Part shown: piece after piece, positions 3,752 to 62,905 of the stretch
How the letters are laid out: every line of letters starts with the position of its first letter
Position numbering within the stretch: position 1 is the stretch's first letter
Source: a virus
Virus record (IMG/VR): IMGVR_UViG_3300036715_003541
Location: 1-64,000 of that record
Reading direction: 5' to 3' (one strand)
Length of the DNA stretch: 64,000 nt
The notes under the pieces: generated by a model
What the model was told of the DNA's origin: nothing
The model's database searches: none
The model's input: only the letters and a program-made list of their open reading frames with translations
Program-made: the position numbers and the translations under genes

Positions 3752-4069
3752 TTATAGTAGAATAATTGGGCTATTTTCTTTCTCTTCTTTTTCGGTCTGC
3801 TCTTTATCTTCGTATACCAATTCACCATTGATTACTAAATGCCCACCACCCGCTCGTCCAGCCAAAAGAAAATAAACTTCTTTTGTTCCATGCTTACCAA
3901 TATCTAATCTTTCTTGATCTGTTTGAGCATCCTTTAAATACTGATCATACTTTTTAAAAATATTTAACAAATCAGGAAGACAACCAAGTTCTTTTGCTAG
4001 TTTAATAAATTGTTTTCTTGTTGCGTTTTCTGGCAATATTTTAAAACCAGATGATGTATCGACTTTCAT
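3752..4069 (-). CDS. Hypothetical protein, 105 aa
   Basis: This gene is unrecognised. The first two-thirds is predicted helical (RKQFIKLAKELGCLPDLLNIFKKY). It is followed by a short segment with VYFLLAGRAGGGHLVINGEL, which could be a beta hairpin. The C-terminus is strongly charged and ends in a hydrophobic PIILL. ATG 4069 lies one base beyond the stop of the HNH gene at 4071, so the two are likely co-transcribed. Confidence 0.55.
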   Translation of the reverse strand: MKVDTSSGFKILPENATRKQFIKLAKELGCLPDLLNIFKKYDQYLKDAQTDQERLDIGKHGTKEVYFLLAGRAGGGHLVINGELVYEDKEQTEKEEKENSPIILL

Positions 4070-19389: not shown

Positions 19390-21235
19390 TCAGACGCCGT
19401 TTGTAACGCTCTTGCGACCAGCGGCAACACCGCGTGGATTGACAATTGCGATACCGATTTCTTCAGAAACAACCCAACCAAGTTTTAGTTGTTTTGGTTC
19501 GTCAGCTGGGATAACAGAGATGCCTTCGCGGATTGGCATGACACCAACGAACTCTGCATCTGCGCAAGCATAAACTGTTCCTGGTGGAATGATTTTGCTG
19601 ACGATGATATCTGCACCGAACAAAGATCCATACAAACCTGTTTGGAGAATTTCACGTTGGCTAACTGGGTCGATTTCTCCACCACCTGTGCCTTGACCAC
19701 CACCAGAACCCCAGCGAAGGATATCAGCAAACTCATTGATGTTCATGAAGTACTTAGCAGTTACTAAGTCCCAGTGATCAATTTGAGTCTTTAGCTCGAT
19801 AAGATCGCGTTTGAGTAAACCGCCATCGGTAATATCTTGAACAGTGTTTTCAACACCAGCAGCAGAGTCAATGGCTGCGAAAACGTTTGCGTCTTCTTGT
19901 GCCATGATTTCTTGCTTTGCCTTTTGAACTGCACGGTCAATGATATTGAAACGGCGTCTACGAACTTCGTTCATACGAACGGTTGGGTTGGCATAAAGTT
20001 CAAAGGTTGGAACAACAACGCGATCTCCCCATGTACGGCTTTCTGGACCAGAACCGTTTGCTGAAACAACAACGGCAGTAACATCAATATCACGTTCGTA
20101 AGTTGGGTTTGCACCTTGTTCGAGTTCGTCTACAACGAGTGCACGACGAGCGACACCTTGGTAGTCTAAGTTTTTGCGACAAAACTTGTTACAATTACTA
20201 CCTAAATTGGCTTAGTCATTTCTGCTAAGCTCTTTACATTCCTGTAAAGATCAGACTATATCATCATTCTTTTTGAATGTTTGGCATGTAGTCGTTGAGG
20301 ATTCTAAAGTGTGTAAAACCAAATATTTTTCAATTATATTATATAGTTTTATTGAGTTTTTTTTATTTAGATATAAACCATAATATTTTTTGGTTTTATA
20401 CATTCTTTCTACAATCTTTGATCGTAAATCAAAACATCTTAATAAATAACTCTGAAGTTTTTTATTTTCATCTAATGAATATTTGCTTGTATCAAATCTT
20501 ATTTGCTGATCGTTTATTTTCGCCCCTGATAGGAACCAATAAGCCAAAGATTCTTCATTCATCATAAAATCTAAATTGTTACTAATTGTTTTTTTTCCAT
20601 TTAAATAAAATTCTTTATACATCTTATTTAAATCTTGATGATAACAAGTTACAATTATATTTTTTATATTCACATTATTTACAATTCTTTTTATCTTGTC
20701 TTTAATTATGTGAATCAATAATTCATTTGAAAATTTAAACCTAGCATTATCTTTTATTTCTAACTCACCACCACCAAGCAATAATCCAAATATTATATTT
20801 AGTTCACTTTTTGATAATGGTCTTTTTCTTAAAATTCTAGGTTTTACTTCAATCACTTTAGTCTTTCCTGCTGATTGTCTATATCATCTTTTATCTGTTA
20901 CTTTAACTATTTTGAAGCTAGCTGCAGTGCATAGCCTATTGAGTGTTAAAGTGTAAAAGCTTTTAGAGTTTCCAGCATATAGCCAAATTTTAATCCCACT
21001 CGAATCAGTTAATGGGATTTGCCATTGCTTGAGCAAGGGCTACTTTACCGTCTTGTGTCATCATTGCACGGGTAACAAGATCATCGCGCATTTCAGAAGA
21101 AATACTTGGTGCTCCCGAGAAACCTTGGCTTGAAGATGCGCCATCTTGAAAGACAGAAGCTAGTTTTGTAATAAGTTGCATAACTTCACTGTGTGAAGAG
21201 GCATTAAGTTCGCCTTTTGAGTTAAAATAAGACAT
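19390..21235 (-). CDS. Major capsid protein (HK97-type, jumbo-phage class), split by a group I intron
   Basis: Two exons are read on the minus strand: exon 1 from ATG 21235 to 21012 and exon 2 from 20179 to the stop at 19390, together 1014 nt (337 aa). The junction restores a continuous frame, NPI-RKNLDYQG, after removal of intron 20180-21011. Visible hallmarks of the capsid family are LDYQGVARRALVVDELEQGANPTYERDIDV, then a region with RTWGDRVVVP, RMNEVRRRRFNIIDRA and ADAEFVGVMP. The N-terminal ~26 residues end at ITKLAS, which may be a cleaved delta domain. A CGGAG site precedes the ATG. Unlike most neighbours the gene uses GC-richer codons, as expected for a highly expressed structural gene. 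Confidence 0.9.
20180..21011 (-). ncRNA. Group I self-splicing intron (832 nt) in the major capsid gene
   Basis: The 5' splice site is fixed by P1: exon end AATCCCAT pairs with GTGGGATT inside the intron (20992-20999), with the U-G pair at the cut. The 3' end is the omega G at 20180, followed by exon 2 starting TCGC. P10 (exon UCG with CGA before the guide) is plausible. Core elements seen on the minus strand are P (TGCTGGAAAC, 20977-20968), Q (CAATCAGCAGG, 20877-20867), R (TCAACGACTA, 20298-20289) and S (GATATAGTCTGA, 20262-20251). GACTA/TAGTC gives P7 and TGCTG/CAGCA gives P4. P9-type hairpins lie at 20231-20248 (CTTTACAGGAATGTAAAG) and 20209-20230. Splicing joins the frame exactly. An ORF lies between Q and R. 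Confidence 0.9.
20251..20856 (-). CDS. Intron-encoded LAGLIDADG homing endonuclease, 201 aa
   Basis: The ORF starts at GTG 20856, just after the Q element, and its C-terminus runs through the intron's R and S sequences, ending in the TGA of the S element (20251-20253). The N-terminal FGLLLGGGELEI resembles a first LAGLIDADG helix and LAYWFLSGAKI the second, in the order of a double-motif family (LAGLIDADG_2-like). Later segments TSKYSLDENKKLQSYL and YYGLYLNKKNSIKLYNII fit the family's C-terminal half. The protein would cut intronless capsid alleles and spread the intron by homing. It appears intact, unlike the free-standing endonuclease at 0.7-1.7 kb. Activity is inferred. Confidence 0.85.
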   Translation of the reverse strand: MIEVKPRILRKRPLSKSELNIIFGLLLGGGELEIKDNARFKFSNELLIHIIKDKIKRIVNNVNIKNIIVTCYHQDLNKMYKEFYLNGKKTISNNLDFMMNEESLAYWFLSGAKINDQQIRFDTSKYSLDENKKLQSYLLRCFDLRSKIVERMYKTKKYYGLYLNKKNSIKLYNIIEKYLVLHTLESSTTTCQTFKKNDDIV

Positions 21236-30735: not shown

Positions 30736-33700
30736 TCAGAATAATTTGCGACCAATTCTTGGGCTAGAGAAAGCTTTTTCCAATTGATCAGCGAGAGATT
30801 CAGACTCTCCAGTGCTGACAGATTCTGTAACACCAACTTGTGGCATTACACCAGCTTTTCTAACAATTGGCTTAGCTTCAACAATACGTTGCAATGTGGT
30901 GAATTGCTCATCAGCAAATGACATGAGTTCATTTACTTGGTTTGCAATGTGTGATTCGGTTGAATCACAGAATCCACGAGCAGCCATTTTATGAGCCAAG
31001 TTATAGGCACGAGCCATTTTAACTTTGTAAACTTCGAGATCTTTTTCCATAGCAGCTTTTGCATGTTCTTTTACAAGTTCACCTGCAAATTCACCACCAC
31101 CATCTGCTTGACCCCAATATTTCTTGTAATAGTCAATGGTTGTTTTATCAACACCTTGAGCTGCAAGTTCATCCAAATCTGATTCATCTAGTTGACCAGA
31201 TGAAATAAGTTGGTGAATTTTTTCAGCATCTTTTTTGACCTTTGCTTTTGACAAAGAATCCATCATTGCATCATGAGTATCTTCTAATGTTTTGAATTCT
31301 TCAAAACCATCAGATTTTGTGGTAAGTGAATCCATAGAAACACTTCCTTCTGGATGAGCTTTGTCAAGCATTGGGTTCATCTTGAGTGTTTCAGCAGCTA
31401 ATTTTTGACGAGCTGCAACGCGATCTGCACGGGTAGCAAGACTTGCTGTAACTTTGGAACCATCTGGTACAGTTACTTTACCACCTGAAGGTGTTGTGAA
31501 TTGAGTGTCTGCATCTTGTTCATCTTCATCTTCATATGATTCCTCTGAATCTTCAGAGTCATCAGCAGAGTAAGAATCATAAGCATCGGAATCATCTTCC
31601 GAAGAATCTTCACCAGAAGAATCATCTGCATCCATGATCATATCGTTGACTGCTTGCAAATCATTATCAACATCTTTAATATCTTTGCTCAAAATATCTG
31701 CCATAAAATCATCTGCTGTCATATCATCATCCATTCCTGTATCGTAGGCTTCCTCTGCGCTTTTAACAAGTTCATTACCTAGTTTGCAATATTTAAGGAA
31801 AGCAGCGATCACTTGGAAACCATCTGCGATTGCAGATTTTGCTTCACTGACTGCATAAGCAGTTGTGCTATCGATAATTTCACGATTTGCTTTTTTGGTA
31901 ATTCCTCTGCTGTACAATGCACTAAGAGAGGTAAGTTCAGTTTCTGAATCTCGTAATTCGGCGATAACTTCTTTGAAGGTTTCAGCAAGTTCACCATTTA
32001 ATTGTCTACGTAATGAATGCATTCCGCGTTGTGATGCAGCCGCTGCCATTGGAGCTACTTCACCCATTTCAGCTTTTTCATTTGTTAAATCGCGATAAGC
32101 TTCCAATGCATCTGAAATAAGTTCTTGACATTTTTCAAGAGTAGATTGAAGTTGTTCTTTTGGATCGCCATCACCACCCATGTCTGGCATTGGCATATCT
32201 GCACCCATAGAACCTGATTCTTCTTTTGCTGGAGTTGGTGCTGGGCTAACGCTAACTTCTGCGGCTGGAGCAGCTGGTACTTGAGCGATTTTAAATAATG
32301 ATTTAACTGCGCTTACGCCAGCTGTACGAACTTGGTTTACCAATTTTTGACCGAATTCACGAGTGGCAATGCTATCTCTTAGCATTTCATTTTTCTGAGT
32401 AAGTTCATCAACAGTTAAGCTAAGAACAACTTTGTCATCACTTGTGATTTGCCAGACAGATTCGCCTGCATCAGCTTTGCGATAAAATGAAGCTTTTAAT
32501 GCACCAGCGCGAGAAAGTTTTTGTTTACGCTTTAGCTCATCACGTTCACTAACAGATTCAGGGCTTGGATGCAAGCCATCAACATCACCAACACCTGGAA
32601 ATGGTTTTTGACCATGAAGATGTTTATCTAATTTGCGGGCTTTTTCATTCCCTGGATCAACTGGGTACTTGCGTTTGCCCAATGTTGGCTCATTAACATC
32701 GCCACCACCTTGGTAATAAGACTTTGCTTCCAAAGCTGTTTCGGCTACACCTAATGCAGCACGTCTGCGAAGTTCACGACTTTCAATTTCTGCACGAGCT
32801 AGCATTTTTTTACGTTCTAACTCGCTTTGTGGAACACTTTTAATGCCAGGATGTAATCCATCACGACCACCCATATCATCAACTTGCATTTGTTTGTCGC
32901 CATGATTACGAACATCTTCGTTCATTGGTTCTTTTGGATATTTGACTTCACCAGGTGTTGGTTCATTTACGCCTCCGCCACCTTGAAAATAAGCTGTTCT
33001 ATTTTGTAATTTACCTGACATTTCTTTTTCCTTTTCAAATTTATTTAACTGGTCTTGCATTGTTCTTAACTGAGCTTCTATGGAAGCAATGGATTGTAAA
33101 AGATATTGATCTTCTGACGCGTATCGTGCAGCTGGAGGCGAAATTTGGTCTACCTCTGCGATTTGTGAATCATCTGAATTTTGAATGTCTGAATCTATTT
33201 TAGATTCATCATTATGCGTAGTTTCTGATAATGCATCAATGTATTCTAATGTTTTTTGTATTTCTGCTTTTAACTCGTCCAATGTTTTGATACTATTACC
33301 ACCAAATGATTTTACGTTATTATCATCTTTTGCAACATCAATATGAAAGTTAAATGAAGAAGCTGTTTTTAAATTTCTTGCTTCAAAATATTTATCAATG
33401 TTTTGCTTCATAGCAATAACATGTTTGATTGTAGCTAAACGGTCAGCAGGTGTTACAACAATAGATAATTCAATTGGATTTAACTTTAAATTGATTTCAC
33501 CTTCAGCTGTTTTTGTACGCATGTGAGTACAAAAATCTGATTCAACAGTTGCTTGTTTTTGGCAATTCATGCAAACAGCAACGCCAACTCCAGTACCCAT
33601 AGATACATTGTTAGATACGCCTGTTGAAACTTTTCTAGCTAAATCAGGATAATTTATTTTATCCAATGCACATAATGCTATAACTCTTTTTCTATCATGA

Positions 33701-34173
33701 TCATAATAAGTATCAACAATGAAACCTCTAACATGATCTACAGATGAAGATTTGTGATCAACACATAATGGTTTACCAACCCATTTTTTATATGCTGGTA
33801 TTTTTTCACCGTCTTCTTCAGCATGAGCCAATAACTCTGACTCTGGGAATATATCACCATTTGCGTTTTTGTATGGACGAATTGTTGGATCATTGGTAAT
33901 CCAACGCCATTTTTCATCCCAAGATACCTTTACAGGTTCGCCACTTTTTGTAATTTTAGATTTACCAGTGCCATCATATGCAGATGCTTCAGCAGCATGA
34001 ATAATTGTTGCTACGAAATAAAGAAAATCTTTTGCTTTTGGCGCTATATTTTTTAAATTATGTGCGATTTTTTTAAAATCATCTATAACAACATCATCTA
34101 TAATTGGTGAGTCTGCATTAAACGCCTCAATCTTATCAATAGAAAGAGCTTCGCCTATTTTTTTAAAACCCAT
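30736..34173 (-). CDS. Prohead maturation protease fused to a scaffold-like region, 1145 aa
   Basis: The N-terminal ~220 residues look like a prohead protease of HK97-like fold. Motifs are WVGKPLCVDHKSSSVDHVRG (candidate catalytic His140) and NNVSMGTG (candidate Ser191). A zinc-type cluster (CMNCQ at 201-204, C215, H217) follows, and LNPIELSIVVTPADR closes the domain. Two repeats of ~85 residues (about 394-480 and 486-565) start with QGGGGVNEPT or QGGGDVNEPT and contain DGLHP. They are followed by helical, acidic regions rich in Asp, Ser and Glu, with several K-x-A sites (FRKADA, FKIAQV, VRKAGV). The length far exceeds a lone protease (~200 aa), so protease and scaffold appear fused, as in some jumbo phages. 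An AACGAGGA site precedes the ATG, and a terminator follows the gene. Confidence 0.75.
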   Translation of the reverse strand: MGFKKIGEALSIDKIEAFNADSPIIDDVVIDDFKKIAHNLKNIAPKAKDFLYFVATIIHAAEASAYDGTGKSKITKSGEPVKVSWDEKWRWITNDPTIRPYKNANGDIFPESELLAHAEEDGEKIPAYKKWVGKPLCVDHKSSSVDHVRGFIVDTYYDHDRKRVIALCALDKINYPDLARKVSTGVSNNVSMGTGVGVAVCMNCQKQATVESDFCTHMRTKTAEGEINLKLNPIELSIVVTPADRLATIKHVIAMKQNIDKYFEARNLKTASSFNFHIDVAKDDNNVKSFGGNSIKTLDELKAEIQKTLEYIDALSETTHNDESKIDSDIQNSDDSQIAEVDQISPPAARYASEDQYLLQSIASIEAQLRTMQDQLNKFEKEKEMSGKLQNRTAYFQGGGGVNEPTPGEVKYPKEPMNEDVRNHGDKQMQVDDMGGRDGLHPGIKSVPQSELERKKMLARAEIESRELRRRAALGVAETALEAKSYYQGGGDVNEPTLGKRKYPVDPGNEKARKLDKHLHGQKPFPGVGDVDGLHPSPESVSERDELKRKQKLSRAGALKASFYRKADAGESVWQITSDDKVVLSLTVDELTQKNEMLRDSIATREFGQKLVNQVRTAGVSAVKSLFKIAQVPAAPAAEVSVSPAPTPAKEESGSMGADMPMPDMGGDGDPKEQLQSTLEKCQELISDALEAYRDLTNEKAEMGEVAPMAAAASQRGMHSLRRQLNGELAETFKEVIAELRDSETELTSLSALYSRGITKKANREIIDSTTAYAVSEAKSAIADGFQVIAAFLKYCKLGNELVKSAEEAYDTGMDDDMTADDFMADILSKDIKDVDNDLQAVNDMIMDADDSSGEDSSEDDSDAYDSYSADDSEDSEESYEDEDEQDADTQFTTPSGGKVTVPDGSKVTASLATRADRVAARQKLAAETLKMNPMLDKAHPEGSVSMDSLTTKSDGFEEFKTLEDTHDAMMDSLSKAKVKKDAEKIHQLISSGQLDESDLDELAAQGVDKTTIDYYKKYWGQADGGGEFAGELVKEHAKAAMEKDLEVYKVKMARAYNLAHKMAARGFCDSTESHIANQVNELMSFADEQFTTLQRIVEAKPIVRKAGVMPQVGVTESVSTGESESLADQLEKAFSSPRIGRKLF

Positions 34174-52148: not shown

Positions 52149-52892
52149 TTAATAAGATGTTATCTCTAAAGAAAACTGATGATTCCTTGTAATATATTCA
52201 TCAATGTCTTTATATCCCATGGGTACCGATAAATGTGTGATAATTGCTTTATCACCATATTTTTCATCTATTTTTTTGCGACCCTTTAATCCAGCTTCAT
52301 CATTGTCAAACACAATAATAATATTATCTGTATATCGAATAAGAGTTGCAAATTGATAAGCTGATAAAGAAGAAGATCCAACTGCTACAACATTTTTTAT
52401 TCCAAACTCATAGCACTTAATCGCATCTAATTGACCTTCAACCACATATGCAAAACCTTCTTTTAAAATATGCTCTTTTGCAAAGTTTAAGTTAAAACAA
52501 TAGTTACCTTTTTTAAATACAGTATTCTTATATTTTATAAGACTTCTTTGCTTTCTTTCTTCTTCACCTAATAATGTCCTGCCAATAAGAGCAATAGGTG
52601 TGTTATTTGCATTGTAATATGGTATCACTAAACCATGATTTTCAAAATAAGAAAATAAACCAGATTGCTTTTTCCAAGCTAAACCAACATCTATTAAGTC
52701 TTTACTTGATATTGCGTTAGATATCAAATTCATGTAAATAGAAGGTGGGAAATAACCTATGTTATATTTATTTATTATCTCATCTGATAGTCTTGAATAA
52801 ATATATGTTCGATATTCTTCCGCTTCTGAGAAATTTAATAGTAAGTTCTTTGATATTGATATTACTTTTTCAAAAACTTCAGATTTAAACAT
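52149..52892 (-). CDS. DnaG-type primase core (TOPRIM domain) lacking its zinc domain, 247 aa
   Basis: The sequence covers the RNA-polymerase core of bacterial primases. It starts with a short helical region, then NHGLVIPYYNANN (the core-entry motif), a segment with IALIGRTL, and the TOPRIM motifs: VVEGQLD (Glu152) and IVFDNDEAG (Asp196/Asp198), separated by VGSSSLSAYQ. There is no N-terminal CHC2 zinc domain and no helicase-binding C-terminal region. The next gene upstream (52894-53217) encodes two zinc ribbons and stops 1 nt before this start, so the two may be a split primase. Confidence 0.82.
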   Translation of the reverse strand: MFKSEVFEKVISISKNLLLNFSEAEEYRTYIYSRLSDEIINKYNIGYFPPSIYMNLISNAISSKDLIDVGLAWKKQSGLFSYFENHGLVIPYYNANNTPIALIGRTLLGEEERKQRSLIKYKNTVFKKGNYCFNLNFAKEHILKEGFAYVVEGQLDAIKCYEFGIKNVVAVGSSSLSAYQFATLIRYTDNIIIVFDNDEAGLKGRKKIDEKYGDKAIITHLSVPMGYKDIDEYITRNHQFSLEITSY

Positions 52893-53218: not shown

Positions 53219-54067
53219 CTACTCCAATGCTTTCTTTACTTTTAAGAATTCTTCATTTGTTAAAAAAGAAACACTCACCCTCACAAGGTGATCCGTTGTT
53301 TTATTCTTTGATTTAATACCTTCGTTTTTGATAACTAAACAATCTTCATTCCTTGTGTTTGCAGGTATAATAATCGTTTTTTCACCATGAATTGTTTTTA
53401 CTGATTTTGAACAGCCAAGTATTGACTCTGTAAAACTAATATTAAGGTAAGAAATAATATTATTATTTTCTATCGAAAAATACTCACTATCAAAAACCTT
53501 TATTTGAATAAAAGCATCACGCTTTATATCCTTGTAAAAATCACCACCACCAGATATTCTTAATACAAAACCATTGATTGTACCAGGGTCTATTTGAATA
53601 GAATAACTTTTTGTTACAAATGAATATCCATTGTCACAATCGCAAGAAGATGTACATTCACACATTACTGTTTTATAAGAAGTCTTATTACATTTATTGC
53701 AATTAACATCTTTTACTTTACCAAATCCAAGGCATTTTTCACAAAGAGATTTACTAGTTATTTTTACATCTTTCACACAACCAAGTGTGGCTTCCAAAAA
53801 AGATAATCCCAAGATAACATGTATATCAGATAACTTTAAAGTGTGTGAAAAATTATGTTTAAAATCTTTTATCTCAACTTTTTCTTTATGGTTTTTCTCA
53901 AGAAAAGAATAAGCTAAATTTATTTTCTTTAAAATTTCTTCAGATTGTGGATCTTTGTTTACATCTGGGTGATGTGTTTTTACTAACTTTTTAAATTTTA
54001 ACTTTATATCATTTAAAGAATGATAAGAAGTTGCACCCAATGTTTTGTAAGCTTCTTTTAAGTTCAT
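53219..54067 (-). CDS. dnaJ: DnaJ-like co-chaperone (Hsp40), 282 aa
   Basis: The N-terminal J domain has KLVKTHHPDVNKD with the HPD triad at residues 33-35, which stimulates DnaK ATPase. The next part is a degenerate zinc-finger region (CEKCLGFGKV, CNKC, CECTSSCDCDNGY), shorter than the usual four CxxCxGxG repeats. The C-terminal domain (SYSIQIDPGTINGFVLRISGGGDFYKD, INISFTESILGCSKSV-type) fits the substrate-binding region of DnaJ. It overlaps the resolvase gene by ATGA at 54064-54067. Phage DnaJ may recruit host DnaK in replication or head assembly. Confidence 0.8.
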   Translation of the reverse strand: MNLKEAYKTLGATSYHSLNDIKLKFKKLVKTHHPDVNKDPQSEEILKKINLAYSFLEKNHKEKVEIKDFKHNFSHTLKLSDIHVILGLSFLEATLGCVKDVKITSKSLCEKCLGFGKVKDVNCNKCNKTSYKTVMCECTSSCDCDNGYSFVTKSYSIQIDPGTINGFVLRISGGGDFYKDIKRDAFIQIKVFDSEYFSIENNNIISYLNISFTESILGCSKSVKTIHGEKTIIIPANTRNEDCLVIKNEGIKSKNKTTDHLVRVSVSFLTNEEFLKVKKALE

Positions 54068-55791: not shown

Positions 55792-56090
55792 TTGCCACTT
55801 TTTACATAAGCCAAATTTTGTATATAATCAACTTTCCTTGATGGAAGAATGATATCAACAGTCTTTGTTGGGTCTAAAAATAATGTGTAATTTTCTCTTA
55901 TGTAATCATCTGTATTTGTCGTTGTGTCTGGTATAAAGACACCTTTTGTTTCGATGAAATCAGGAAAAAAAGAAGGTTTACCTATTGATAAAAAGAATGT
56001 GTAATCGCTAAACATAATTAAGAAAACTGGCTTATTAGGTAGTGGAAACCTAGTTACTTCTCTTACTTCAGGAATATACGCATCAGACAT
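55788..56090 (-). CDS. Hypothetical protein, 100 aa
   Basis: A small beta-rich protein (RFPLPNKPVFLIMFSDYTFFLSIG, FFPDFIETKGVFIPD) ending with a basic helix (DIILPSRKVDYIQNLAYVKSGK). No motif or family is recognised. The start overlaps the recA stop by 8 nt and its stop overlaps the next gene by 4 nt, so it is surely translated with recA. A role in recombination or replication is only suggested by its location. Confidence 0.52.
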   Translation of the reverse strand: MSDAYIPEVREVTRFPLPNKPVFLIMFSDYTFFLSIGKPSFFPDFIETKGVFIPDTTTNTDDYIRENYTLFLDPTKTVDIILPSRKVDYIQNLAYVKSGK

Positions 56091-57246
56091 TTTTTACCTT
56101 CTTGGTCTTAGACACTAAACCCTCCAACAGATCGTCTTCTGGCTTCTCTATAACTGGTTGTGGCAGCCTTTTATTGTTCTTATTATCACGTGCTATTGCA
56201 ATTTCTTCAGTTAATTCTTTTGCCAATGCAGGATCTGATTTAATTCCTTCTTGAAATTTCGCCAATCCAACCCACTTTTGATCCTTGTATTCATGAGTTA
56301 CAGATGATGGTTTTTTAACCACATCATATTCAACTGCTAATTCTGCAATTTCTTCATGAATATCTACAATACCAATATTAAAGTTTACCTTAAACTCACA
56401 TTTGCGTGGATGTGGTCCGAATTTACTTTTCTCAATTGTTGCACGGATTGTGTGACCAATTTTATTATCTTTTTCATCCAAAATTTGTGCATCTTTACGC
56501 ATCACGGATTCAAAATAAATATTTGCACTTAAAGAATGATTGTATGTGTTTCCACCTGTAAATGTATGGTCAGGACCATACATATCCATAGAATCTTTTT
56601 TGTGATTGATAACAATGAATGGAATATCTGCTTTACCAACCTCAAGAATAAGCTTCCTGAATGTTGGAGTAAGGAATCTTGAAAGAAGACTCATATTCAT
56701 TTTACCAATTGCAGATGTATCTTCACCTGGTGGAATGATAGCCCCCAAAGAGTCAAGTACAATAAGATTTACATTGATTTCTTTTTTGCAAATCTTATCC
56801 AATAAACCTTCTTTAGATTTACCTTTTAATACGTGTGATTTTGCATCTTCTTTTGGAACACCTAAAAGCATCTCAAAACATCGACGACCATTTGCTGCTT
56901 GTTCTTTTTCAACAACAATAATTCGACTAATATCACAACCCAATTCCATTGCCCACTTTTCAGAGAATGTACCCTCTGCATCAATAAAAACCTGATAAGA
57001 CTCAGGATCTTGTGCTTGAGCATTTTTGATAGCAATAATCGCCATCAATGTTTTACCAGATCCACCCGATCCATAAAATTGGATAATTCTACCTTTTGGT
57101 AAGCCACCACATGATAATGCGTCATCAAGTAATAAAGAACCTGTTGGTACAACTTCTATTTTTTTATTTTCTGAGGCTATGTAGTAGCCTAGTTCACCTT
57201 CAGCTTCTGCGTATGATTCAAAAAATGATTTGAATTTATTTGACAT
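56083..57246 (-). CDS. recA: RecA recombinase
   Basis: A 387-aa RecA-type recombinase. Walker A is GSGGSGKT (residues 59-66), preceded by the LSCGGLPKGRIIQFYG segment. The catalytic Glu lies in IDAEGT (about 91) and Walker B is LIVLDSLGA (161-169). The L2-region segment (NHKKDSMDMYGPDHTFTGGNTYNHSLSANI) matches RecA/UvsX. The C-terminal 60 residues are charged. It forms filaments on ssDNA and starts strand invasion. It is flanked by an uncharacterised coiled-coil gene upstream and small genes downstream, all in one cluster. Confidence 0.95.
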   Translation of the reverse strand: MSNKFKSFFESYAEAEGELGYYIASENKKIEVVPTGSLLLDDALSCGGLPKGRIIQFYGSGGSGKTLMAIIAIKNAQAQDPESYQVFIDAEGTFSEKWAMELGCDISRIIVVEKEQAANGRRCFEMLLGVPKEDAKSHVLKGKSKEGLLDKICKKEINVNLIVLDSLGAIIPPGEDTSAIGKMNMSLLSRFLTPTFRKLILEVGKADIPFIVINHKKDSMDMYGPDHTFTGGNTYNHSLSANIYFESVMRKDAQILDEKDNKIGHTIRATIEKSKFGPHPRKCEFKVNFNIGIVDIHEEIAELAVEYDVVKKPSSVTHEYKDQKWVGLAKFQEGIKSDPALAKELTEEIAIARDNKNNKRLPQPVIEKPEDDLLEGLVSKTKKVKNV

Positions 57247-58884: not shown

Positions 58885-59400
58885 TTACTCTCTTAATAAT
58901 GGTTCATGGAAAGATGTTCTTCGTGGCATATAATGCTCTGGCACATTATCTATATGCAAAATCGTAGCATCAAAAGAACCACCAATAAAATAATCAACAA
59001 GCACACAGATACCATTATCTGATATTTCTAATAAATCGTACATTGATATACTTCTAGATAAGTAATCATCTACTAATTTTTGTGATGTTCTAACACGAAG
59101 CATACGCATTGAATCATTGTCTTCTTCACAATATTTTTCAATAAATAAGTTACCATACTCATCACCAAGCAATGTTAAAATAGGACCTTGTAGATATTCT
59201 AGATCTTCAATTACATCTGGTAACTTTACATTTGGATAAGGTATTCCTTCTTTTTTTGAAAGTTTAGGTCTACCATTTGGAGGCGTAGGTTTATCACTTG
59301 CTTGTATTTCTTCGCCTGTTTTTAATAAGGATAGAACATCTATATATCTATGGTAAATAAATATAAATAATATTTTAATCCATGAAAGAATCTTCGTCAT
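58885..59400 (-). CDS. Hypothetical protein, 171 aa, start uncertain
   Basis: The reading frame from ATG 59400 overlaps the end of dnaE by 26 nt and begins with a hydrophobic stretch (ILSWIKILFIFIYH). The well-formed part begins near YIDVLSLLKTG. The body (VIEDLEYLQGPILTLLGDEYGNLFIEKYC) and C-terminus (DLLEISDNGICVLVDYFIGGSFDATILHI) look like a normal alpha/beta protein. No ATG, GTG or TTG lies between the hydrophobic start and the body, so the N-terminus is uncertain. Function is unknown; the location right after dnaE suggests a replication gene. Confidence 0.5.
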   Translation of the reverse strand: MTKILSWIKILFIFIYHRYIDVLSLLKTGEEIQASDKPTPPNGRPKLSKKEGIPYPNVKLPDVIEDLEYLQGPILTLLGDEYGNLFIEKYCEEDNDSMRMLRVRTSQKLVDDYLSRSISMYDLLEISDNGICVLVDYFIGGSFDATILHIDNVPEHYMPRRTSFHEPLLRE

Positions 59401-62400
59401 CTTCAACCAATCCTTCATTAATAAGTTCATCCTCAATAGAATCTAAATCACTTGAATTAGATTTGTTTGTTTTTAAGCTGACTTTTTTATGAGCCAATTC
59501 TTCTTTAGATGGAATTGGTGGTATTGGTAATACATCATAAATGCCATTCAAAATAAGCCCCATTGTTTCGTTATACACATTTACAGTGCAGTAACTTTTA
59601 ACAGCCACACCAGACTCTACTTTTATATCTTTCTTAATAAATGCATTAAGTAATTTTTCCCAATCATCTGGGAAAACTGTTAAGTCTATTGTTTCATTAT
59701 TCTTGTCTTCAACCATACATTTAGCCATTGTTCGACCAAAGTATTTAGAATCTTCTTTCTTAATCTTAAATGCAAAGAAATCTCTTAAAATAAAATGAAA
59801 TGGATCAACAGGATACTTATCCCTCATTTTCTTTATATCAGCAATTGTTTTATGCTGAGGCTTAAATAAAACAGAATATCCATCTTTTGTTGGGCAAGAA
59901 AAAGCCTCACCAATAAATTTAGTTTCTAAAGCAAACCTTTCTTGAACAGTCCATTCTTTTTCTTTTGGAAATGGATACTCAAATTGCTTTTCTAATGGAT
60001 CATTTTTCTTTAACCAAACTTGTAGCTTTTTACGATAGTCAGATGTATATAAATACATTGTTTTTCTATTCATCTTAAATCTATCAAAACCACCTGAAGC
60101 AATAATTGCTTGTATAGCATTCGCACGAACAGTACGAGAGTTACAGCGACACATAAAATCAAAATAACTTGTAAAAGGTCTGTTTTCAACAATGTTTTTT
60201 ATAGCATCATCACCAACATTTTTTAAACCCTTAAAACCAGTAATTAACTGATTCTTATTATTTATACTATAATTATCTTCTGATTCATTTACATCTGGTG
60301 GTAAAATATTAACGTTTAACTTACGTAACTCATTCTTATATTTCAACACATTCGCATCTGCATCTGGTGCGGAAGAATGACTTTCTTGAATTAAATTCGC
60401 TAACAAAAATTGAATTGGATAATTTGCTTTGTAATAAGCAGTATAATAACTGATCATAGAATACATAATACTATGAGAAATATTAAAACCATAACCACCA
60501 AATGGTAAAACAACTTCATCCCAAATTTTAACAGAAATATCATCAGGTACATTATTCTTTGTAGAGTCATCAATAAATTCTTGGCGCCACTTTAAAGCTT
60601 TTTCTGGATTCTTACCTTTTTCTTTTGTAAGTTTACGTAAACGATCCGCTTCATGCAAAGACCACCCGGCAATATCTTGCGCCAAATACATTAAAGATTC
60701 TTCATACAAACCAAAACCATAGGTTGCTCCAAAAGCCCGATTAAGTCTGGAGTCAATAAGTTTCAATGGTTTCCTGCCATCTCTTGTTGCAATGAAATCT
60801 GTTCTTATTTCTTTTGCAGAAGGACGAGCTAAAGCATTGATATGGCTAATATCTTCAATTGTTTTTGGTTTTATCTTTTTACAAAGTTCAGTTGTTCCAC
60901 CAGATGTCCCCAATTGGAAAACCCCAAGAGTATTACCATCACATAATAATTGATATGTTTTCTCATCATTAAATGGTATGTCATCAATGATTGGAGCTTT
61001 TTGACCTGACTTTTCAATAAGTTCATTTGTCATTGTTAAAATATCTAATGTAGATAATCCTAGTAAGTCCATTTTAACAAGCCCCATTGCCTCTGCATCA
61101 TCTTTTGTTAGCTCAAGGGCAAGTGAGTTGTCTTTATCGTGGCGAAGCGGTACAAGTCCTTTTAAAGACCGTGCGCCTATTACTAAACCAGCAGCATGGG
61201 TTGACCAAGCTCTAATTTTACCAGAAATATCTTTGTATCTAAGAATCTCTGGATACTTTTTACAATACTCAACAAATAAAGGGCATTTTTGATAAGCGGA
61301 TTCTACATTACGAACTTCTTTATCAGAAATACTATCCGCAATTTCATCACCAATTGTAACAGCTTCATCACGGCTTCCACCTAATTCACAAGCACGAGCA
61401 ACGTCTCTTGCATATACTTTTGCTGTAACTGTATTTAAATTGGAAACGTGAGCAACGTTGTTTGAACCATATTTGTTGATAATATATTCTTCAACTTCAT
61501 GACGACGAGAAGTTGCAAAGTCAACGTCAATATCAGGGAATGATGTTTTTTCTTTATTGTGAAAACGAGCAAAGATAAGTTTATATTGAATTGGATCAGC
61601 TTTATGAATGTTGATAAGATAAGCAACCAAACAACCGCCAACAGATCCACGACCAGGACCAACTGGAATGTTCTTTGACTTAGCCCAATTAATATAATCA
61701 GCAACAATCAACATGTAAGATGAAAAGCCATGAAATTCTAATACATCTAGCTCTTCAACCAATCTATCTTCATAAACCTTTTCTTCTTCCTTTGACATTT
61801 CCCTTGAAAGAAATAAGCGGCTTAAACCTAAGTTACATTTATAGCGAAGATAAGATTTATCTTCTGATAATACCTGCACATCACTTGGTTGATTTGATAG
61901 CCATTGCTTATACTCAAAATAATCTTTTTCATCTGATACTGGAAATATTGGCAGTTCTTTACCACTTGGGTTAGAGTGCTTTGGATTTATCCAATCAGGA
62001 TTCTCACACAAATTAGCAAAGTAAACGCTATTATTTACAAATTCAATCGCATCTTCTTTTGGGTAATTTCTAGCAAAAAAGTTAAAAACCTCTTCACCTG
62101 TTTTGAAATAAAAATCAGGATTTGGGAATTTTTTTCTGTAGTTAGAGAATTTATTTTGATGAGAGCCAATAGCTAAAAAAACATCATGTGTTTCATGATC
62201 TTCTTTATTTATGTAATGTGTATTTACAGTTGCAACAATCCTTACATTGTATTTTTTACCTAAATTGTAAATCTGACGATTCAAAAAGTTTTGATCAAAT
62301 GCATTGTAATCATGAATCTCTGGTCTTTTAATATTTGTTGTTTGAACTTCTAAACCAAGATTATCACCAAATAAAGAAATCAAACGCTCCAATGTTTTTT

Positions 62401-62860
62401 CAACATTTTCTTTGTTGTAAGACATTAGGTCTTTTGATAAGATTCCATTACCCGATCCTGTTAAACAAATTAAACCTTCGCTATATTTTTCTAGTAATGA
62501 CCAGTCACAAACAGGAATGGCTTTTTTGTCTGTAAAGATGCCATTTTCAAATGCTTCTTTATTTAATTTCAATAAGTTAGAATATCCAACTTGATTTTTA
62601 GCCAACAATACAATAGACTTTAAAATATCTTCTTTGTTTTTATTATCATCTGTAAAAGATAATTCAACGCCAATAATAAACTTAATGCCTGTATCTTTGT
62701 ACAAATTGTACCCAGACCAAGCACTCGCTAATGAATTTGTATCAGTAATTCCTACTGACTTTTGATCCAATGTCTTTACTTTTTTAAATATTTCCTTAAC
62801 AGTTGATAAGGATGATAATACAGAAAATTCACTATGATTATGAAGTGATACGAATTCCAT
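59375..62860 (-). CDS. dnaE: DNA polymerase III alpha subunit (DnaE type), 1161 aa
   Basis: Full-length C-family replicative polymerase. The PHP domain begins at once (MEFVSLHNHSEFSVL, His7/His9). The polymerase core shows VGPGRGSVGG (about residues 400-409) and PDIDVDF (442-448) with the aspartates of the active site, then a HVSNLNTVTAK-type region and a KMDLLGLSTLDIL segment. The long C-terminal part includes the HhH-like NVGDDAIKNIVENR element. The ATG at 62860 matches DnaE's usual start; GTG 62890 adds ten basic residues. An unusually complete host-like polymerase in a phage suggests the phage replicates with its own catalytic subunit. Confidence 0.92.
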   Translation of the reverse strand: MEFVSLHNHSEFSVLSSLSTVKEIFKKVKTLDQKSVGITDTNSLASAWSGYNLYKDTGIKFIIGVELSFTDDNKNKEDILKSIVLLAKNQVGYSNLLKLNKEAFENGIFTDKKAIPVCDWSLLEKYSEGLICLTGSGNGILSKDLMSYNKENVEKTLERLISLFGDNLGLEVQTTNIKRPEIHDYNAFDQNFLNRQIYNLGKKYNVRIVATVNTHYINKEDHETHDVFLAIGSHQNKFSNYRKKFPNPDFYFKTGEEVFNFFARNYPKEDAIEFVNNSVYFANLCENPDWINPKHSNPSGKELPIFPVSDEKDYFEYKQWLSNQPSDVQVLSEDKSYLRYKCNLGLSRLFLSREMSKEEEKVYEDRLVEELDVLEFHGFSSYMLIVADYINWAKSKNIPVGPGRGSVGGCLVAYLINIHKADPIQYKLIFARFHNKEKTSFPDIDVDFATSRRHEVEEYIINKYGSNNVAHVSNLNTVTAKVYARDVARACELGGSRDEAVTIGDEIADSISDKEVRNVESAYQKCPLFVEYCKKYPEILRYKDISGKIRAWSTHAAGLVIGARSLKGLVPLRHDKDNSLALELTKDDAEAMGLVKMDLLGLSTLDILTMTNELIEKSGQKAPIIDDIPFNDEKTYQLLCDGNTLGVFQLGTSGGTTELCKKIKPKTIEDISHINALARPSAKEIRTDFIATRDGRKPLKLIDSRLNRAFGATYGFGLYEESLMYLAQDIAGWSLHEADRLRKLTKEKGKNPEKALKWRQEFIDDSTKNNVPDDISVKIWDEVVLPFGGYGFNISHSIMYSMISYYTAYYKANYPIQFLLANLIQESHSSAPDADANVLKYKNELRKLNVNILPPDVNESEDNYSINNKNQLITGFKGLKNVGDDAIKNIVENRPFTSYFDFMCRCNSRTVRANAIQAIIASGGFDRFKMNRKTMYLYTSDYRKKLQVWLKKNDPLEKQFEYPFPKEKEWTVQERFALETKFIGEAFSCPTKDGYSVLFKPQHKTIADIKKMRDKYPVDPFHFILRDFFAFKIKKEDSKYFGRTMAKCMVEDKNNETIDLTVFPDDWEKLLNAFIKKDIKVESGVAVKSYCTVNVYNETMGLILNGIYDVLPIPPIPSKEELAHKKVSLKTNKSNSSDLDSIEDELINEGLVEDDEDSFMD

Positions 62861-62905
62861 GTTGTCTTTCTTTACCCTTTTAAAAGCCACTTATATTTCA
62901 AAGCA

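Follow-up and report, generated by a model that had tools for sequence, protein, structure and literature searches.

The window analysed here, a 64,000-nt stretch comprising positions 1 to 64,000 of the IMG/VR record IMGVR_UViG_3300036715_003541 (full record 85 kb), carries on its minus strand a major capsid gene interrupted by an 832-nt insert, which in turn holds an I-SceI-type LAGLIDADG open reading frame (ORF) (Table 1). Both flanking coding segments match phrog_2522 and cover this profile in order (positions 10–69 by exon 1 and 141–317 by exon 2), which bears out the identification of the gene as that of the major capsid protein. Read without splicing, the capsid frame (21235..21005, minus strand) terminates at NPIN*. 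Removal of 832 nt (21011..20180) leaves 224 + 790 = 1014 nt, that is, 337 codons and a stop with the junction NPI|RKNL, exactly the restoration of the frame that the initial annotation of this DNA had described. The GC content of the insert is 25.8% versus 45.5% in the exons.

Among cultured phages, Bacillus phage G has the head protein closest to this capsid protein (50.5% identity over residues 45–327). Since relatives lie on contigs of up to 472 kb, the 85-kb record probably represents part of a jumbo phage genome. Elsewhere in the window we noted a DNA polymerase III alpha-like gene (59375–62890; PHP, alpha, finger and HHH domains) with RecA-like (56083–57246), DnaJ (53219–54067) and DnaG-like primase (52149–52892) genes near it, and a 1145-aa protein (30736–34173) of which residues 102–222 match a head maturation protease (phrog_18299), the remainder giving weak or unassigned matches only.

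Table 1. Features of the interrupted capsid gene, its intron and the intron-borne ORF (window coordinates).
Feature	Position	Strand	Details
Major capsid gene, exon 1	21012..21235	-	224 nt, ATG start; ORF; phrog_2522 major head protein, E 2.4e-5
Group I intron	20180..21011	-	832 nt; starts UAAC, ends with omega-G; RF00028 38.1 bits (3' half, E 5.9e-8) + 18.5 bits (5' half); R1 157.5 + 115.1 bits (model built with this copy included, hence not independent evidence)
P10 5' strand CGA	21000..21002	-	pairs with UCG, first 3 nt of exon 2 (20179..20177); 94% paired
Internal guide sequence	20993..20999	-	forms P1 with exon end 21018..21012, with U.G at cut; 95.8% of cells paired; 4 pairs changed on both sides
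P3 5' strand UUUGGC	20982..20987	-	partner 20285..20280; 99% paired, 3 pairs compensatory
P4, P5, extended P5a–c domain	20869..20977	-	Q element at end; pairs counted in the 17-intron alignment
P6 5' strand GGA	20866..20868	-	partner UCC 20301..20299; GGA/UCC here versus GGG/CCC in L002, a compensatory pair
LAGLIDADG_2 ORF (I-SceI type)	20251..20856	-	201 aa, GTG start; PF03161 66.9 bits; pLDDT 83.4; I-SceI fold E 5.6e-11
ORF codon 29, GGT (Gly)	20770..20772	-	first motif LLGGGEL versus LLGDGCL (Asp) in homologues
ORF codons 110–111, Ser-Gly	20524..20529	-	second motif WFLSGA versus W..DDG; DD in all 27 homologues
R element, P8 hairpin and S element	20254..20293	-	R / P7 5' 20293..20289, P8 20279..20265, S / P7 3' 20258..20254; under the ORF C-terminus
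P9, P9.1 and P9.2 hairpins	20192..20249	-	96–100% paired; 16/17 pairs compensatory
Major capsid gene, exon 2	19390..20179	-	790 nt including stop; phrog_2522, E 4.1e-52; intronless relatives align across the junction

A search of IMG/VR run without selection for introns provided 80 capsid relatives on ~79 distinct contigs. Sixty-eight of them run uninterrupted across the position of the window's intron, and the joined window exons align with these empty sites without a gap at the junction, so that the spliced capsid fits its intronless relatives exactly at the site. An interruption is present in the other 12 entries, which come from 11 contigs, some of them near-identical. With 11 of ~79 distinct contigs affected, the statement that introns in capsid genes are uncommon fails for the phage group of the window.

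To set intron boundaries, intronless capsids served as the standard against which U|...G| splice pairs were scored, and 17 related introns were delimited in this way; their ORFs were removed, the cores were aligned, and a structure comprising P1, P3–P10 and both pseudoknots was drawn by hand. The top-ranked pair for the window was 21011..20180; the search required a 3'-terminal G, which is therefore not independent evidence. P1 is formed by the exon end AATCCCAT and the guide GTGGGATT with a U.G at the cut, a pairing already pointed out from the window itself; across the relatives the U.G at the 5' splice site is kept in 16 of 17 introns and replaced by U-A in the remaining one. Both sides of P10 vary in all three pairs across relatives. 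In P1 the exon pairs with the guide, and in P10 the guide pairs with the 3' exon; since both helices covary with the exonic sequence at each insertion site, the splice sites given in Table 1 have strong support.

The P, Q, R and S elements, the P7 pairing and the P9 hairpins that had been recognised by eye were all recovered. The intron has no P2, its P5 bears a long P5a–c extension, and the ORF lies within the P6 loop. In the core, pairing covers 99% of cells in P3, 100% in P4 and P6 and 91% in P7; P3, P6 and P7 also show compensatory changes. Over P1 and P3–P10 together, 96.1% of cells are paired and 51 of 75 pairs have changed on both sides (222 cells in 17 introns), compared with 33–41% paired and 13–37 both-side cells when the 3' partner was slid by 1–3 columns, a control that is somewhat biased toward a structure drawn with the window sequence as the reference. 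Folded as a single sequence, the window core had a z-score of −3.6 relative to shuffles. The insert is thus confirmed as a group I intron with a conserved P3–P8 core in which P7 is pseudoknotted with P3.

Covariance models agreed with this assignment. RF00028 recognised the 3' half of the intron and, weakly, the 5' half; because its best score of 38.1 bits is below the Rfam gathering score of 50 bits, a curated cutoff and not a definition in biological terms, a default scan at the gathering threshold gives no match in the window. The ORF splits the core, and the relatives also score low with RF00028. R1, a covariance model constructed from the 17 introns, gave no match in the window better than E 0.8 apart from the two intron halves. 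Annotation pipelines see such capsid genes as broken, and the Rfam threshold misses these introns.

The ORF frame passes through R, P8 and S, in line with the reported overlap of a homing-type LAGLIDADG ORF with R and S, and its stop codon lies right behind P7. The motif AGGAAAG in P6, located 6 nt ahead of the GTG start, fits a ribosome-binding site and possibly serves the ORF as one. The encoded protein matches PF03161 (LAGLIDADG_2) over 2–166 of 168 positions, with two motifs in one chain, and its AlphaFold model reached a pTM of 0.79; I-SceI was the best solved match both by fold (window ORF against PDB) and by profile (family alignment). Among 28 aligned homologues, the window copy is the only one in which both catalytic aspartates are missing: 26 of the 27 others keep the first (the exception, L088, has Asn in its place), all 27 keep the second, and 26 keep both. 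The protein is ~120 aa shorter than its relatives, without the ~95 N-terminal residues that in homologues form HTH-like repeats (as judged by eye) and without several other segments; the conserved MKYK segment is gone, strands are shortened, and, of 53 core positions with strong conservation, 23 are altered or absent. Because both catalytic aspartates and the N-terminal HTH are lost, the window copy probably cannot cut DNA or home by itself, and the idea that the intron drives gene spread is left unsupported for this copy. With the window ORF as the sole query, IMG/VR yielded a single relative and the named phages none; GTDB genomes likewise contained no relative of it.

A near-identical phage, L002 (IMGVR_UViG_3300000234_000531), carries the same intron at the same site of its capsid gene, with a complete and intact endonuclease of 320 aa. 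The capsid exons of the two phages differ with a dS of 0.094 and a dN of 0.010, and the ribozyme halves by ~1 change in 260 nt (99.6% identical core), whereas the ORFs show a dS of 1.33, a dN of 0.60 and 42–48% amino acid identity. The similarity breaks sharply at P6 on both sides, and the third P6 pair is altered on both sides together (A-U versus G-C). We favour, with moderate confidence, a cassette exchange in which a divergent ORF replaced an L002-type ORF through recombination in the conserved ribozyme halves. The ORF tree places the window copy beside L002, which would fit very fast evolution in place as well, and the donor ORF was not found. Such an exchange is compatible with either of the two fates of the ORF considered below.

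The ORF, still an open frame, may be either a remnant or a maturase. That it is a recently dead endonuclease heading to loss, as in the Goddard–Burt cycle, is in our estimation about an even prospect. The loss of the HTH, of both aspartates and of the MKYK segment, together with the shortened strands, points in this direction, and so do other decay stages among the relatives, namely the Asp-to-Asn change in motif 1 of L088 and the first intron of L156 (L156:4921-5551), a clear case in which an 87-aa N-terminal ORF remnant has its nuclease domain deleted; degradation after fixation is also the usual fate of such elements (PMC13405050). Simple decay, however, does not predict 201 codons without a stop or frameshift at so high a divergence. 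In a neutral simulation, ~0.08 substitutions per site were enough to bring the chance of 186 codons remaining open under 5%, and the frame is open here although the ORF dS to L002 is ~1.3 with a dN of 0.60. Every gap is in frame, the codons of the DDG motif differ at 7 of 9 bases, and the fold is still confidently predicted. For the branch leading to the window copy, a home-made codon model rejected omega = 1 (2 delta-lnL 22.7), the synonymous sites being saturated so that the branch omega itself has no estimate. For this reason we conclude only that selection acted on the frame along most of this branch.

These properties would also suit a LAGLIDADG protein that no longer cleaves DNA but attaches to the RNA of the intron and is retained since capsid production needs efficient splicing. 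There is precedent in the maturase-like LAGLIDADG proteins of Thermotoga and I-AniI (PMC3984707), and maturase takeover or decay after fixation has been discussed (PMC3984707, PMC13405050). A dedicated phage-encoded group I maturase that would secure splicing of a heavily expressed late gene nevertheless seems unlikely to us, though it deserves consideration. The changes extend beyond the active site to those 23 altered or deleted core positions, and purifying selection may wholly predate the loss of catalysis, the saturated dS blurring the timing. Moreover, ORF-less relatives with intact cores (L083 and L105) indicate that the lineage has no obvious need for a protein, with the caveat that each of these genes also holds an ORF-bearing intron.

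Taken as a whole, the locus is very probably an essential capsid gene harbouring a group I intron that is capable of splicing, comes from a lineage established by homing and has an endonuclease that is now dead. As judged from the anatomy and covariation, guanosine would attack at NPI|, with the 5' site defined by the U.G of P1 and the 3' site by P10 and omega-G, and ribozyme splicing would restore the 337-aa capsid protein; in unspliced RNA, translation would end one codon into the intron. The lineage would have colonised the capsid gene through endonuclease homing, and the coding cassette within the P6 loop would now specify a divergent, trimmed LAGLIDADG protein; as this has no catalytic acids, the element would be expected neither to cut DNA any more nor to home alone. 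The open ORF may help its intron fold or may represent late decay, and we propose that the intron is maintained because it is seldom lost precisely and, being spliced out, remains neutral. An intein, or a plain interruption that kills the gene, is very improbable in view of the stop that follows in frame after a single codon of the insert, the complete group I core with covariation and the junction equal to that of intronless relatives. By mechanism, then, this is an ordinary, real group I intron in an uncommon host gene. Of the initial reading, the group I intron, the LAGLIDADG ORF, the major capsid gene and the splice sites all stand; gene spread by this copy and a role in regulating capsid synthesis gained no support, and rarity does not hold within this group.

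The intron belongs to a family that has repeatedly landed in the same gene. When IMG/VR was searched with a profile of the ORF family, 30 loci were recovered, 29 of which hold pieces of the same capsid gene. In phage-G-like jumbo phages, related introns occur at no fewer than six places in this gene (in window numbering: codon 71; three within 6 nt at 74–76; after 87; 94; ~163; 248), with up to three per gene and a shortest exon of 12 nt. Spliced models were verified for L083 (three introns of 265, 1181 and 306 nt; exons of 212, 12, 56 and 728 nt), for L105 (three introns of 283, 270 and 1068 nt; intervening exons of 49 and 19 nt) and for L099 (two introns), where the splice sites of L099b were set by analogy with L083b after a first choice was discarded. 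Three introns are apparent in L098, L100, L103, L106 and L156. Several introns in one phage gene are known from Twort. Introns without an ORF were seen only next to an ORF-bearing one, which may reflect sampling, as most loci were found through the ORF.

In L082 the first splice choice was dropped, as the end of the 3' domain seems to be absent; at L082:3939-4060 the intron apparently lacks P9.2 together with the first residues of exon 2 (the RKNL equivalent) and may be damaged or imprecisely deleted. In L101, a LAGLIDADG ORF of the same family (L101:3007-3774; motif 1 GDS) is located outside the capsid gene, a short way upstream of its start at 3915; it may be free-standing or sit in an upstream intron.

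One capsid gene, in a large group of uncultured jumbo phages, is almost the only place where this ribozyme lineage has settled; it has done so more than once and at several positions, in places with three introns per gene and exons of 12 and 19 nt, and intronless alleles coexist. Empty, occupied and ORF-less alleles of this one gene occur alongside alleles with an active or a dead nuclease, a natural series that lends itself to tests of the homing cycle, of cassette exchange and of a possible takeover by a maturase. Within this series, the endonuclease-dead yet open ORF of the window next to a near-identical phage with an intact enzyme is of particular note.

Phage group I introns have been described as preferring genes of nucleotide synthesis and DNA metabolism, a preference that was called mysterious (PMC12350094), and capsid-gene examples are already known from LittleE and Tuc2009 (PMC3706429). 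The closest parallel is mycobacteriophage LittleE, with an intron of ~820 bp, probably of group I, in its major capsid gene and a LAGLIDADG-like ORF; splicing was demonstrated by RT-PCR and protein N-terminal sequencing (PMC3706429). Compared by description, the LittleE ORF differs from that of the window in lying on the opposite strand and in being related to I-CreI, the phage is a different one with a much longer capsid protein, and its authors call the intron class unclear (PMC3706429). Lactococcal phage Tuc2009 likewise has a group I intron in a capsid gene and, as far as its description as cited in PMC3706429 goes, is unrelated to the phage of the window. I-SceI of the omega intron, also a LAGLIDADG enzyme of a group I intron, represents the closest solved fold and the best sequence match of the ORF family but keeps both catalytic aspartates and resides in mitochondrial rRNA. 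The huge phages named Jug carry many group I introns, some with splicing confirmed by metatranscriptome, which are spread over terL, nrdD, DNA polymerase and other genes (PMC12363816), whereas the lineage of the window is almost confined to the capsid gene in the records scanned. Jumbo phage phiPA3 also has an intron-borne endonuclease, which unlike the window copy with its missing catalytic residues is active (PMC11620839). A literature search, light on subscription journals, found no paper on capsid introns of phage-G-like jumbo phages.

The gene preference of the lineage was examined with R1, which at a threshold of 1e-4 had no match among the intronless capsid loci searched. On 26 whole records (~20 of them >190 kb), R1 matched in the capsid gene only in 11, and a twelfth gave one stray match of 19 bits. 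In the same records RF00028 detected one group I intron outside the capsid gene (G003:C1:298120-298314, corresponding to L233:1921-2115; 52.1 bits). As a control on cultured phages, R1 gave 16–93 bits to introns of DNA polymerase, nrdE and further genes (93.4 bits for the DNA polymerase intron of Thomasclavelia phage TR-TP1, 58.3 for nrdE, 47.3 for a cell wall hydrolase and 44.5 for RNA polymerase). Strict specificity of R1 for capsid introns was therefore rejected, and since the model scores introns of other genes, the capsid bias is an observation on the loci found and not a property of the model.

Two scans of IMG/VR for short ribozyme motifs (the Q or R element), followed by R1, extended the comparison. 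Among the matches listed were introns in the other capsid families phrog_267, 283, 9953, 1328, 10 and 334, tail-gene introns in L264 (major tail) and L292 (tape measure), and introns in L266 and L271; HNH-type ORFs are present in some of these introns. A broader capsid bias beyond the closest lineage is provisionally apparent among these listed matches. In four loci, L115, L124, L135 and L169, HNH-ORF introns occupy a similar place in phrog_267-type capsid genes.
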